Shown: positions 53,766 through 57,854 of the stretch, in pieces
Numbering within the stretch: position 1 is the first letter of the stretch
Layout of the letters: each line of letters begins with the position of its first letter
DNA from: Sphingorhabdus sp. 109
GTDB lineage: Bacteria > Pseudomonadota > Alphaproteobacteria > Sphingomonadales > Sphingomonadaceae
NCBI RefSeq assembly: GCF_902506555.1
Contig: NZ_LR732707.1
Location: 644,001 to 708,000, forward strand
DNA length: 64,000 nucleotides
Direction: 5' to 3'
Made by a program: the position numbers and the translations under genes
The notes under the pieces: model-generated
Seen by the model: the letters and a program-made list of their open reading frames with translations, nothing else
What the model was told of the DNA's origin: nothing
Database searches by the model: none

Positions 53766-55634
53766 CTATATTGTGTCGTCGATCTGGGTCAGTTCGACCA
53801 ACCGCTCGTGAAATAACTGCTTCGCTTTGCGAAGGCGCTGCTGCTCGGCATAACTTTCTTCCGTAAGATCATCCTGCACCCGCCGCGTCGCCTCTGCCAG
53901 GGCCGCTTCCAGTCCGGGGCGCGCGGTCACCACTTTAATCGCTTCTGCCAAATCCCGATGTGCCCGTTCGATCAATAGCGAAGGGGCATCGTCTGGCAGT
54001 TTGCGGTTGAAAGTGAAATTCAGCGCATCGGCCCGTAACAGCCCTTTTGCGACATTATAACAATCTGTCTTCTCCAATATGGTAAGAAGGCCCTGCATAT
54101 CAAGCGTTTCTTTGCGCATGGCGACATTGATCAGTTCGCCGAGCAGGGACTGCATTGTCGAATCGGCCAGCCGGATCGCGCTGAGCTCCTCGAAATGGCT
54201 GGAAATCCGGCAGGGATGGCGGATCAGGCCACCCAATATGCCCTTGGCGATTTGCAGGTCATAGCCTTCGACCAGGAAGGATTTGGTATCGTCGGTCGGT
54301 TTGTAGGAAATGAACTTCGAGGCGAATTTGCGGTTTGCATTTTGTGGACGACGCGCTTCGTTACGGTTGTCCTTTCTGGCGAAGAATGTCTCCTGATAGC
54401 GATCGTCGAACGCTTGCCGATAATGCTGCGCGATATCCTGATTGGCGATAGCACGGACATGGTCGGACAGACGCTTTTTCAGGCCCGCCTTGGTTTCCGG
54501 CGTGTTCAGCGGTTCGGCATCAAACTCGACCCGCCAGATCTTGTCGTCGAGCGTCTGGGGGCGGGCGATCAGGGCGGCAAAGGCCTGTGCGCCTTCCGAG
54601 CGGATCAGGTCATCGGGATCCTGACCGGCCGGCAGGGAAATGAAGGTGAGGCTGTGCGAAGGGCGCAAGATGGGCAGGGCGCGCACGGCTGCGCGCATCG
54701 CCGCTTTTTGCCCGGCACGGTCTCCGTCAAAGCAGAGGATCGGCGCCTCGACCATCTTCCAGATGCGTTCGATCTGATGCTCGGTCAGCGCGGTGCCGAG
54801 CGGCGCAACCACGTCGTTAAACCCGGCCTGTGCCAGGGCTATGGCGTCCATATAACCTTCGACCACCAATATCCGTCCGGTCTGGCGCGAAGCGGGCGAG
54901 GCCTTGTCGAGATTGTAGAGCGTCCGGCCCTTGTCAAACAGAGGCGTGTCGGGGCTGTTGAGATATTTCGGCTCGCCGTCGCCCAATATCCGGCCTCCAA
55001 AGGCGATCACCCGGCCGCGAGGATCGCGGATCGGGATCATCAGACGGCCGCGAAACCGGTCATAAGGATCCTTGCCGTCGACCTTGATCAGCAGTCCGGC
55101 CTCGATCAGCCGGTCGAGGCCATGTTTCGACAGGGCATCCTTCAACTGTCCCCGCGAATCGGGAGAGAAGCCAAAACCGAATTCGCGGATCGTCTTTTCC
55201 GAAATGCCGCGGTTCTTCAGATAATCCCGCGCCGCCGCGCCTTCGGCGCTGTTGAACCGGTCGACAAACCAGTCCTGCGCTGCCGCCATGACGTCATGCA
55301 GCGTGGCCCGGACCTCCTGTCGCTGCGCCGCGCGGGGATCGGGGGCAGGGACTTCCATCTGCGCTTCGGCGGCAAGATCCTTGACCGCATCCATGAAGCC
55401 AAGGCCGCGCTGTTCGGTCATCCAGCTGATCGCATCGCCATGGGCCCCACAGCCGAAGCAATGGTAGAAGCCTTTCTCGTCGTTGATTGTGAAACTGGGA
55501 GTCTTCTCGTTATGGAACGGGCAGCAGGCCTTGTACTCCCGGCCGGCTTTCTGCACTTTCACGGTCCGCCCGATCAGCGTCGACAGCGTGACGCGGGATC
55601 GCAGTTCTTCGAGCCATTGCGGGGTGAGGGTCAT
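53766..55634 (-). CDS. dnaG: DNA primase
   Basis: Synthesises RNA primers for replication. The 622 residues have the N-terminal zinc ribbon (CPFHNEKTPSF ... GFYHCFGCGAHG), the RNA polymerase core (LMIPIRDPRGRVIAFGGR), the TOPRIM block ILVVEGYMDAIALAQAG with ILCFDGDRAGQKA, and a helicase-binding C-terminal domain. The ATG overlaps the TGA of the DUF559 gene (ATGA). The bases just upstream are the inverted repeat of that insertion, and its GGGAGGGGG now stands where the ribosome-binding site should be. Confidence 0.97.
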   Translation of the reverse strand: MTLTPQWLEELRSRVTLSTLIGRTVKVQKAGREYKACCPFHNEKTPSFTINDEKGFYHCFGCGAHGDAISWMTEQRGLGFMDAVKDLAAEAQMEVPAPDPRAAQRQEVRATLHDVMAAAQDWFVDRFNSAEGAAARDYLKNRGISEKTIREFGFGFSPDSRGQLKDALSKHGLDRLIEAGLLIKVDGKDPYDRFRGRLMIPIRDPRGRVIAFGGRILGDGEPKYLNSPDTPLFDKGRTLYNLDKASPASRQTGRILVVEGYMDAIALAQAGFNDVVAPLGTALTEHQIERIWKMVEAPILCFDGDRAGQKAAMRAAVRALPILRPSHSLTFISLPAGQDPDDLIRSEGAQAFAALIARPQTLDDKIWRVEFDAEPLNTPETKAGLKKRLSDHVRAIANQDIAQHYRQAFDDRYQETFFARKDNRNEARRPQNANRKFASKFISYKPTDDTKSFLVEGYDLQIAKGILGGLIRHPCRISSHFEELSAIRLADSTMQSLLGELINVAMRKETLDMQGLLTILEKTDCYNVAKGLLRADALNFTFNRKLPDDAPSLLIERAHRDLAEAIKVVTARPGLEAALAEATRRVQDDLTEESYAEQQRLRKAKQLFHERLVELTQIDDTI

Positions 55635-56041
55635 AAATCCCCCTCCCGCCTGCGGGAGGGGTTAGGGGTGGGCATATCAGCGAGCACGCGCTCAATCCGC
55701 CCGACCACACCCTCAACATTGTTCAAAACATCATCATTTGTGAATCGAATGACCTTATACCCGTGCTTGACAAGAGCCCTTGTTCGCTTCGCATCATAGT
55801 CTTGCTGTGTCTCATGCGAATATCCATCGATTTCAATGATCAATCCCAGTTCGCGGCATAGGAAGTCTGCATAATAGGGCCCAACGGGCATCTGTCGGCT
55901 GAATTTTCGTCCACCAAGCTGCCGTTTCGACAAATATTTCCAAAGCTTTCGTTCAGCCGGTGTGGCTGCGTTGCGCAGGGACTTGGCGCGGTCGGTATTT
56001 CTTGGTTTGAAAACTACCACTGTTTTTCTTTTCAGTCCCAC
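55631..56041 (-). CDS. DUF559 (Vsr-fold endonuclease-like) protein
   Basis: A 136-residue protein of the DUF559 group, related to very-short-patch-repair and PD-(D/E)XK nucleases. Conserved blocks are LRNAATPAERKLWKYL, KFSRQMPVGPYYADFLC, LIIEIDGYSH (probable metal-binding Glu/Asp) and GYKVIRFTNDDVL. The start is GTG at 56041 inside the right inverted repeat, and the last dozen residues (TPNPSRRREGDL) are encoded by the left repeat. It splits yqeY from dnaG. Biological role is unknown. Confidence 0.85.
   Translation of the reverse strand: MGLKRKTVVVFKPRNTDRAKSLRNAATPAERKLWKYLSKRQLGGRKFSRQMPVGPYYADFLCRELGLIIEIDGYSHETQQDYDAKRTRALVKHGYKVIRFTNDDVLNNVEGVVGRIERVLADMPTPNPSRRREGDL
55635..55672. repeat. 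Left 38-bp inverted repeat flanking DUF559
   Basis: The repeat is a perfect reverse complement of 56037-56074. It contains its own stem (CCCCTCCCGC against GCGGGAGGGG). It codes for the DUF559 C-terminus and ends against the dnaG start codon, which occupies 55632-55634 on the minus strand. Confidence 0.9.
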
Positions 56042-56074
56042 CCCTAACCCCTCCCGCAGGCGGGAGGGGGATTT
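56037..56074. repeat. Right 38-bp inverted repeat flanking DUF559
   Basis: Perfect reverse complement of 55635-55672. It begins directly after the yqeY stop codon (56075-56077 on the minus strand) and contains the GTG start of DUF559. Its hairpin could slow transcription leaving yqeY, but no T tract follows. Confidence 0.9.
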
Positions 56075-56527
56075 TCAGCTTAGAGCCGCCTTCACCAGGG
56101 CGCTGGCCTGGCTCATGTCGATTTCCGTGCCGTGGCGCTTTTTCAGTTCGCCCATCACCCGGCCCATGTCCTTCATGCTGTCGGCGCCGAGTTCGGTCTT
56201 GATTCCGGCGATCAGGGCGGCGGTTTCTTCCTCGCTCAGTTGCGCGGGGAGAAATTCCTCGATCACGGCGAGTTCCTGCTTCTCGGCAGCGGCGAGTTCG
56301 GTGCGTCCGCCGCTTTCGAACATGGCGATCGATTCGCGGCGCTGTTTGGCCATTTTCTGCAGGACATCGGTGACCATGGCGTCATCGTCCGCTGCGGCAT
56401 CCTTGGTGCGCAGCTCGATATCCTTGTCCTTGATCTTTGCCAATATGCTGCGGGTCGCGGCGGTGCGATCCTTGTCACCGGCCTTCATGGCGGCAATTTG
56501 CGCGGCTTTCACGGTCTCGCGAATCAT
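56075..56527 (-). CDS. yqeY: GatB/YqeY domain protein
   Basis: A 150-residue protein of the YqeY family, related to the tail domain of the amidotransferase subunit GatB; role unproven, possibly linked to tRNA-dependent reactions. The ATG at 56527 has GAGGAAAG upstream and gives MIRETVKAAQIAAMKAGDKD; an ATG 12 codons earlier is less likely. The C-terminal EEFLPAQLSEEE and GELKKRHGTEIDMSQAS are typical. It normally precedes dnaG and rpoD and is divergent from carA. Confidence 0.93.
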   Translation of the reverse strand: MIRETVKAAQIAAMKAGDKDRTAATRSILAKIKDKDIELRTKDAAADDDAMVTDVLQKMAKQRRESIAMFESGGRTELAAAEKQELAVIEEFLPAQLSEEETAALIAGIKTELGADSMKDMGRVMGELKKRHGTEIDMSQASALVKAALS

Positions 56528-56660
56528 GGCTTTCCTCATATTTTTGGAATAAGCTACCACCATAGCGGGAAGATAATATTTTTCATAGATTGTGACGCCA
56601 GAAATCTGGTTCTAGGTCCCGTGAAATTTTGCGCCTGTCACCGACCCGAAGGAACCGCCC

Positions 56661-57854
56661 ATGACCCATGCCCATAATCCCGCCGCTCCCGAGGGTGCAA
56701 CAGGGATATTGGTATTGGCCGATGGCACAATAATATGGGGACGCGGCTTTGGTGCGACCGGTTCTGCGGTTGGCGAAGTCTGCTTCAACACCGCGATGAC
56801 CGGCTATCAGGAAGTGATGACCGACCCCAGCTATGCCGGGCAGATCGTCACCTTCACCTTTCCCCATATCGGCAATGTCGGCACCAACGAGGAGGATATC
56901 GAGGCGGACAATCCGCATGCGCTGGGTTGTATCGTCCGCGAGGATATTACCGCACCGTCCAATTTCCGCGACCAGAAGCCGTTTGACCAGTGGATGGCCG
57001 AACAGGGCCGGATCGGCATTTCCGGTGTCGATACAAGGGCTTTGACCCGGCGAATCAGGGAGGCCGGCGCACCCAATGCGGTGATCGCTCATGATCCCGA
57101 AGGCCAGTTCGATATCGACGATTTGCTCGGCAAGGCGCGGGCCTGGTCGGGGCTGGAAGGCCTGGATCTGGCCAAGGAAGTAACCGGGCACCAGACGCAT
57201 TTGTGGGACAAGGGCGGAGCGTGGCGGCTCGGTCATGGCTATGCGCCATTGGAAGAATTGGAAGCATCTTCGACCCGTCCGCATGTTGTGGCGATTGATT
57301 ATGGCGCAAAGCGCAATATCTTCAGAAACCTTGTTAAGGCTGGCGCAAAAGTCACTGTAGTTCCTGCTGAAACTTCCTACGAAGATGTCATGGCTTTGAA
57401 ACCGGCGGGCGTGTTTCTGTCCAACGGCCCCGGCGATCCGGCGGCGACGGGCGTCTATGCGGTTCCGGTGATCCAGAAGCTGCTGGAAGCGGATGTACCC
57501 TTGTTCGGCATCTGCCTCGGCCACCAGATGCTCGCTCTCGCGGCGGGCGCCAAGACGGTCAAGATGCATCAGGGCCATCGCGGTGCCAATCACCCGGTGC
57601 AGCGGATCGGCGGCGGCTGGGCCGAGACCGAAGGGCTGGTCGAGATCACCAGCATGAACCACGGTTTTGCGGTGGACAGCGAGACGCTGCCCGACACTAT
57701 TCACGAAACCCACAAGAGCCTGTTCGACGGCAGCAATTGCGGCATCGAAATCATCGGCAAGCGCGCCTTTGGCGTTCAATATCACCCCGAAGCCAGCCCA
57801 GGGCCGCAGGACAGTTTTTATCTGTTCGAGAAATTTGTCGGGGGGTTGGAGTGA
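56661..57854 (+). CDS. carA: Carbamoyl-phosphate synthase small subunit
   Basis: Glutaminase subunit that supplies ammonia to CarB for arginine and pyrimidine synthesis. The 397 residues have the N-terminal CPSase small domain (VCFNTAMTGYQEVMTDPSYAGQ contains the hallmark) and a class I amidotransferase domain with the nucleophile in FGICLGHQML and His-Glu in GVQYHPEASPGP. AAGGA precedes the ATG. Its stop overlaps the RraB-like gene. It is separated from carB by two genes. Confidence 0.97.
   Translation: MTHAHNPAAPEGATGILVLADGTIIWGRGFGATGSAVGEVCFNTAMTGYQEVMTDPSYAGQIVTFTFPHIGNVGTNEEDIEADNPHALGCIVREDITAPSNFRDQKPFDQWMAEQGRIGISGVDTRALTRRIREAGAPNAVIAHDPEGQFDIDDLLGKARAWSGLEGLDLAKEVTGHQTHLWDKGGAWRLGHGYAPLEELEASSTRPHVVAIDYGAKRNIFRNLVKAGAKVTVVPAETSYEDVMALKPAGVFLSNGPGDPAATGVYAVPVIQKLLEADVPLFGICLGHQMLALAAGAKTVKMHQGHRGANHPVQRIGGGWAETEGLVEITSMNHGFAVDSETLPDTIHETHKSLFDGSNCGIEIIGKRAFGVQYHPEASPGPQDSFYLFEKFVGGLE

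Follow-up and report, generated by a model that had tools for sequence, protein, structure and literature searches.

The window analyzed here, a 64,000-nucleotide stretch of the Sphingorhabdus sp. 109 genome (contig NZ_LR732707.1, positions 644,001 to 708,000), carries, inside an essential operon and between yqeY and dnaG, a compact cassette in which a short DUF559 gene is framed by two inverted copies of a repetitive extragenic palindromic (REP) hairpin. Comparison with other genomes suggests that the cassette belongs to a widespread class of nuclease genes associated with REPs, a context overlooked by an earlier note made from the letters of this stretch alone.

As that note had recognized, the two arms of the cassette are exact reverse complements (38 nt each, 100% complementary, with a spacing of 364 nt), and each folds as a 9-bp hairpin under DNA parameters (−11.0 and −11.4 kcal/mol, with z scores of −2.1 and −2.5), its G-rich tail directed at the DUF559 gene. 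The runner-up inverted pair listed between positions 54000 and 58000 was 29 nt long at 72%. When up to 3 mismatches were allowed, the arm core occurred at only 2 places in the window, both of them the arms; shuffled controls gave a mean of 0.13 places, with 2 places reached in 1 of 100 shuffles. No Rfam match at the gathering score was found in positions 55000 to 57000, and PADLOC gave no match at an E value of ≤0.001.

The arms leave almost no room at either edge, again as first described: the left and right arms adjoin the dnaG start and the yqeY stop, respectively, and the stop codon of DUF559 shares an ATGA with the start codon of dnaG, in agreement with the open reading frame (ORF) coordinates (Table 1). 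The same 4-nt overlap was present in all 6 same-genus cassettes (ATGA in five, TTGA in one), and a G-run before the dnaG start recurred in 6 of 6; GGGAGGGG is a putative Shine-Dalgarno sequence for dnaG. Both features are consistent with capture of the dnaG start by the insertion, as the earlier note proposed; the capture itself we infer from sequence. The accompanying idea that both ends of the DUF559 gene are made of repeat sequence held for the final ~12 codons (PTPNPSRRREGDL) and probably fails for the other end. There, a GTG at 56041 lies inside the arm, but because 4 of 5 same-genus relatives have no possible start before a point seven codons downstream, the true start is probably near 56020 and not derived from the repeat.

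Table 1. Features of the yqeY-dnaG junction and its surroundings (window positions)
Feature	Position	Strand	Basis
dnaG-side REP arm: outer hairpin and inward G-rich tail	55635..55672	.	38-nt perfect inverted repeat
yqeY-side REP arm, exact reverse complement of the dnaG-side arm	56037..56074	.	
DUF559 (EDxHD/Vsr-type) nuclease ORF, 136 aa	55631..56041	-	PF04480 E=1.1e-36, structure model
dnaG, downstream neighbor; start overlaps DUF559 stop	53766..55634	-	ORF list
yqeY, upstream neighbor; stop adjoins arm	56075..56563	-	ORF list
carA	56661-57854		

The product of the framed gene matched Pfam DUF559, a family named there as a "protein of unknown function," at 125.4 bits against a curated cut-off of 20.6. 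The other Pfam match was a sub-threshold one to the MTES_1575 nuclease, and no transposase domain was present in the unit. An AlphaFold model from 54 sequences (predicted local distance difference test [pLDDT] of 84.7; predicted template modeling [pTM] score of 0.77) had PDB entry 3HRL as its nearest fold, followed by the catalytic domain of the homing endonuclease I-Bth0305I (E 5.3e-5), with a weak match to Vsr (1cw0, E 0.04). A profile search matched 3r3p at E=0.003 (E=5.3e-5 by fold), and its further PDB matches at E 0.3 to 0.76 were taken as chance. Because E70, D72, and H76 were invariant in the 54 sequences and D83 was conserved in at least 90%, the protein fits the EDxHD class, and we assign these residues as the putative E, D, H, and D of the motif. 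The available text of PMC3943268 describes the EDxHD family, and that of PMC9403480 assigns a DUF559 gene to it. The ratio of nonsynonymous to synonymous change (pN/pS) was 0.18 to 0.32 in 15 of 15 pairs of the six cassettes, with synonymous sites near saturation in several, and the gene looks to be under purifying selection. Hairpin cores of the six were 93 to 95% identical, compared with 69% for the gene body.

Of 149 genomes sampled across the family, 129 contained DUF559, as did 97 of 289 across the class. Each locus was given a flank score, which rated the best inverted repeat between the two 250-bp stretches flanking the DUF559 domain, with a threshold of at least 13 for arms and equal-size windows elsewhere in the same loci as controls. 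Family loci reached the threshold in 55 of 60 cases, compared to 10 of 600 control windows, and the best class-level loci in 19 of 27 compared to 2 of 108, after 3 of 30 were dropped as short loci at contig ends (L173, L174, and L177). For mid-ranked class loci the counts were 15 of 20 and 1 of 120. Named loci, the best 80 of 538 relatives found less one at a contig end (L204), scored at least 13 in 54 of 79 cases versus 5 of 474 controls, and at least 15 in 50 of 79 versus 0 of 474. Because the sets yielding 55 of 60, 19 of 27, and 54 of 79 consisted of top-scoring matches, these fractions do not describe all DUF559 genes; weaker family members scored at least 13 in 6 of 14 cases (0 of 84 controls), and 0 of 4 did so among those weaker than 1e-20. 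A one-off insertion was rejected as an explanation, since the arrangement recurs widely among family and named loci.

Arms that lie inside the aligned domain, or that are more diverged, are missed by the score threshold. Locus L193 has a REP-encoded C terminus, yet its flank score is 8, and two Synechocystis loci scored 10 and 8 with C/G hairpins visible on both sides. Among 18 loci hand-picked from the 45 plasmid-collection records with a match, and scored without control windows, 12 reached 13, among them Deinococcus (4 of 4), Picosynechococcus and Pseudanabaena (4 of 4), Sinorhizobium, and Sphingomonas. Those below 13 were the two Synechocystis loci, Escherichia coli, Neisseria gonorrhoeae, Azospirillum, and one Sphingomonas. 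Three records filed as plasmids (NZ_CP155749.1, NZ_OL790696.1, and NZ_CP119142.1) are probably mislabeled, to judge from the presence of core genes (carAB, dnaG, rpoD) or from a length typical of chromosomes. The Deinococcus cassettes L196, L322, L323, and L324 occupy different junctions in operons for aromatic degradation, and their arms are turned the other way from those of the window cassette, with the tail on the outer side and the hairpin on the inner side.

The repeat also occurs apart from the gene. In the genome from which the window comes, the core CCCTCCCGCNNGCGGGAGGG was found at 9 places with up to 2 mismatches, versus 0 for the reversed pattern. Six of these form three inverted pairs spaced 85 to 90 bp, one pairs with a more diverged copy at a distance of 73 bp (L008), and two are the cassette arms. 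The core pairs are inverted with tails inward, an arrangement that the available text of PMC3116915 gives for REPINs (REP doublets forming hairpins) in REP-associated tyrosine transposase (RAYT) systems, and three of the doublets in this genome folded as DNA with z scores of −6.0, −5.3, and −2.7. A search of this genome for a Y1 transposase (PF01797) returned no match at E≤0.001. A second DUF559 gene in it (C2:3267476) has flanking hairpins of another family. The earlier note had allowed that its arm might turn out to be an abundant dispersed repeat unlinked to DUF559 genes; dispersed it is, but in linkage with such genes.

Across the 149 family genomes, C/G hairpin counts followed DUF559 content. 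Counts were at most 6 in the 20 genomes free of DUF559, and 10 or more hairpins were present in 0 of these 20, in 3 of 45 genomes with weaker DUF559 genes only, and in 43 of 84 with strong ones (best E below 1e-27); hairpin count and DUF559 copy number had a Spearman correlation of 0.59. Repeat and protein were further compared at 46 loci from genomes with several DUF559 genes, leaving out L029, L030, and others under 3,290 bases (contig ends) as well as L199, a duplicate of L015. The repeat was closer to that of the nearest protein in another genome than to those of same-genome paralogues in 40 of 46 cases, with 1 tie and 5 against. In a Mantel test of the protein/repeat correlation across genomes, 0 of 500 permutations reached the observed value. 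By this count, hairpin type tracks nuclease lineage more than host genome.

These data bear on the possibility that the hairpins are ordinary repeats or terminators spread by another agent, such as a RAYT elsewhere, with DUF559 genes as tolerated passengers that landed in REP pairs or were captured by them. Hairpins can act as terminators, some DUF559 genes are without arms, and Y1 transposases were found in 16 of the 46 hairpin-rich family genomes, in correlation with richness. However, 30 of the 46 had no Y1 match while all 46 carried DUF559, repeat type follows the nuclease across genomes, and inverted pairs of this kind are rare in control windows of the same loci. Hitch-hiking of this sort is an unlikely account, if the strongest of the three alternatives considered.

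Among same-genus genomes, the yqeY locus was recovered in 28 of 32, with dnaG after yqeY in these 28 loci. The junction was empty (4 to 10 nt) in 8, held a REP-DUF559-REP cassette in 6, and in 6 more was occupied by a GIY-YIG cassette that has a different repeat; the remainder contained an unrelated 355-nt insert (6), another ORF (1), or 166 bp with a decayed REP (1). These states differ among close relatives, on a species tree in which only 7 of 25 inner branches were well supported. The carriers of the 355-nt insert (L115, L120, L121, L122, L124, and L127) have no REP-A copies. REP-A numbered 5 to 21 copies in the six genomes carrying the window-type cassette; of the eight empty-junction genomes, six had 0 and two had 2 and 4. 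The "minimal mobile cassette" of the earlier note is supported by the coexistence of 8 empty and 6 occupied junctions, and by the finding that homology between related cassettes stops at the arms. For example, of 249 locus pairs homologous across the domain, 155 also had flanks in common and 94 were confined, and in 49 of those 94 homology stopped within 25 nt of both outer arm edges. Two cassettes of genome G117 and one of G039, at unrelated sites, have only 458 to 488 bp in common, from arm to arm, in 12-kb loci. A clean empty site of the G117 cassette was sought in G039 and not found.

Similar patterns were found further afield. Deinococcus sp. NW-56 carries a cassette at the junction of an oxidoreductase gene with hpaE (hpa operon), and in Deinococcus proteolyticus a 79% identical cassette is on the opposite side of the oxidoreductase gene, with an empty oxidoreductase/hpaE junction (4-nt overlap). 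Sphingomonas parapaucimobilis YK209 has DUF559 genes at yqeY-dnaG, at sufB-sufC, and in a transhydrogenase operon. Comparison of the filled yqeY-dnaG junction with its 8 empty relatives revealed no visible target-site duplication, the 4- to 10-nt spacer being replaced and divergence blurring the comparison. Operon co-orientation was weak as a general rule, with both neighbors on the strand of the gene in 15 of 40 cases by crude ORF calling. Some same-genus genomes contain split or fragmentary DUF559 genes (G166:C1:870891-871203 and G157:C19:67196-67509), which suggests decay after invasion. A viral origin was considered and set aside: a scan of viral_contigs with one protein yielded 2 pattern matches that did not prove to be relatives by tblastn, and 3 phage records were at 31 to 43% identity.

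Two further explanations can be weighed against this distribution. If DUF559 were a domesticated repair enzyme, a Vsr-like mismatch or hairpin-processing host nuclease, the REPs would be its substrates or regulatory sites and movement would be rare. Purifying selection and the weak fold match to Vsr are consistent with this, as is the in vivo functional connection between VsrA, a DUF559 protein of Caulobacter, and a cytosine methylase that the available text of PMC12907096 describes. Such a role sits poorly with an uneven distribution among related species, multiple copies in many genomes, the different operon junctions in Deinococcus, and cassette homology that ends at the arms, and we hold it to be improbable, slightly more so than hitch-hiking. 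Alternatively, in site-specific homing the nuclease would cut an unoccupied gene junction such as yqeY-dnaG, the cassette would be copied via flank recombination, and the REPs would only stabilize it. The homing-endonuclease fold of DUF559 and the use of one junction by DUF559 and GIY-YIG cassettes in different species, as well as by the S. parapaucimobilis DUF559, fit this proposal, but related cassettes occupy sites without a common flank and gene-less REP pairs are dispersed too, leaving it the least likely of the three.

The GIY-YIG cassettes at yqeY-dnaG (L103, L106, L107, L109, L111, and L125) encode six ORFs alike in sequence, with a repeat-encoded C terminus and a 4-nt dnaG overlap in 6 of 6; Pfam analysis of one (L103) identified PF01541 at E=5.5e-19. 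GIY-YIG genes (L130 to L159) likewise have inverted hairpins on both sides, drawn from other repeat families: with 300-bp flanks, 24 of the 30 best loci in the bacterial family scored at least 13 compared to 2 of 60 control windows. L130 and L139 were truncated loci that stayed in the set, and L130, with a score of 13, is one of the 24. GIY-YIG is a second nuclease fold with the same hairpin-framed arrangement. Repeats also occur in frame within a variable linker of CarA, as a DUF559-type REP pair in L128 (PLPPAGGARGG...DPSREREG) and as GIY-type repeats in L106, L110, and L125.

Among known systems, REP/REPIN-RAYT elements likewise combine a small DNA-processing gene beside inverted REP hairpins, dispersed inverted REP doublets, and several distinct enzyme/REP pairs per genome (for RAYTs, the available text of PMC3116915). 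The DUF559 system differs in its enzyme, which has an EDxHD/Vsr fold rather than being a Y1 (HUH) tyrosine transposase, in its C/G-rich hairpins with a G-rich tail, and in the lack of a Y1 match in its own genome. It also differs in its hairpin ends, as the GTAG or CGTC tag defined in the available text of PMC3733652 was absent from both strands of the window arms. With I-Bth0305I the window protein has in common the catalytic fold, the E-D-H-D residues, and a mobile stand-alone nuclease gene. Unlike I-Bth0305I, the DUF559 cassette lies outside any intron or intein, is flanked by inverted repeats, and occurs at many sites, and the protein is a single short domain without a separate DNA-binding module. 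Caulobacter VsrA and PDB 3HRL belong to the same Pfam family or fold; by contrast, the available text of the VsrA paper makes no link to REPs ("palindrom" has 0 occurrences; PMC12907096), and a DUF559 gene from N. gonorrhoeae, the source species of 3HRL, has a flank score of 10. Miniature inverted-repeat transposable elements (MITEs) and their autonomous parents also comprise short gene-less units with the termini of a longer gene-bearing unit, but the DUF559 unit, in contrast to MITEs and insertion sequences, has no transposase domain; no target-site duplication was visible at the one junction examined closely, where divergence blurs the comparison.

With a probability of roughly 0.6, we interpret the cassette as a REP-associated nuclease element, in which a single-domain EDxHD/Vsr-type nuclease gene lies between inverted copies of a cognate REP hairpin that is itself dispersed as gene-less pairs. 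The best reading of its working mode is one like REP/RAYT, with a homing-type nuclease replacing the transposase. The nuclease would most likely bind an inverted REP pair, possibly as a dimer, and cut or nick there, after which host repair or replication could copy the whole REP-gene-REP unit to a new site or, alternatively, a gene-less pair could be copied in trans. Gene junctions may be favored as targets, where little would be lost. Within operons the element could be expressed by read-through, and the G-run of the REP beside the downstream start codon would permit the tight ATGA overlap.

Several observations weigh against the REP-associated nuclease interpretation. Flank scores were below 13 in 25 of 79 named loci, including four Xanthomonas, Rhizobium leguminosarum, and Cupriavidus, and in 8 of 14 weaker family members, and the examined E. 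coli and N. gonorrhoeae DUF559 genes were without arms (below 13). Ten or more hairpins were found in 16 of 26 genomes with Y1 versus 30 of 123 without (Fisher p 4e-4). The cross-genome correlation of protein and repeat was modest (rho 0.18), and shared descent contributes to the 40 of 46 because some of the nearest proteins came from close relatives, cases that descent alone could explain. In 5 of 6 genomes with GIY-YIG in the slot, 7 to 16 REP-A copies persist without this DUF559 there; such copies could be remnants, or a different DUF559 could serve them. Vertical inheritance with losses within the genus would also fit the tree of the six cassettes. Neither a target-site duplication nor an exactly matching pair of empty and filled sites could be resolved in sphingomonads; the G117/G039 comparison showed ~500 bp of unrelated DNA at the site. 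Finally, comparison of sequences underlies the architecture, the nuclease-repeat link, the patchy occupancy, the unit boundaries, the purifying selection, and the catalytic residues, whereas REP cleavage, dimer binding, the copying route, site preference, and read-through expression are deduced from these patterns.

Among the titles and abstracts listed in searches of the open literature, none reported a nuclease-REP link; subscription papers were mostly outside this search, and an earlier report is possible. Some of the rhizobial and cyanobacterial repeats seen here are presumably previously named elements. More tentatively, at odds just short of even, many orphan palindromic repeats (sphingomonad, rhizobial, Deinococcus, and cyanobacterial C/G-rich hairpins; TTCGTCCTGAGC-type) might be moved by small homing-fold nucleases, DUF559 (EDxHD) and GIY-YIG, as a transposase-free form of REP mobility that would have arisen at least twice. 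The recurrence of hairpin-flanked nuclease genes in distant bacteria suggests that simple nucleases rather than transposases may spread some of the short palindromic repeats of chromosomes, and a cognate nuclease for a widespread hairpin family would give DUF559 a testable substrate. Nucleases alone could drive the spread of REPs, which would affect operons, yqeY-dnaG being one, and even carA through in-frame insertion.

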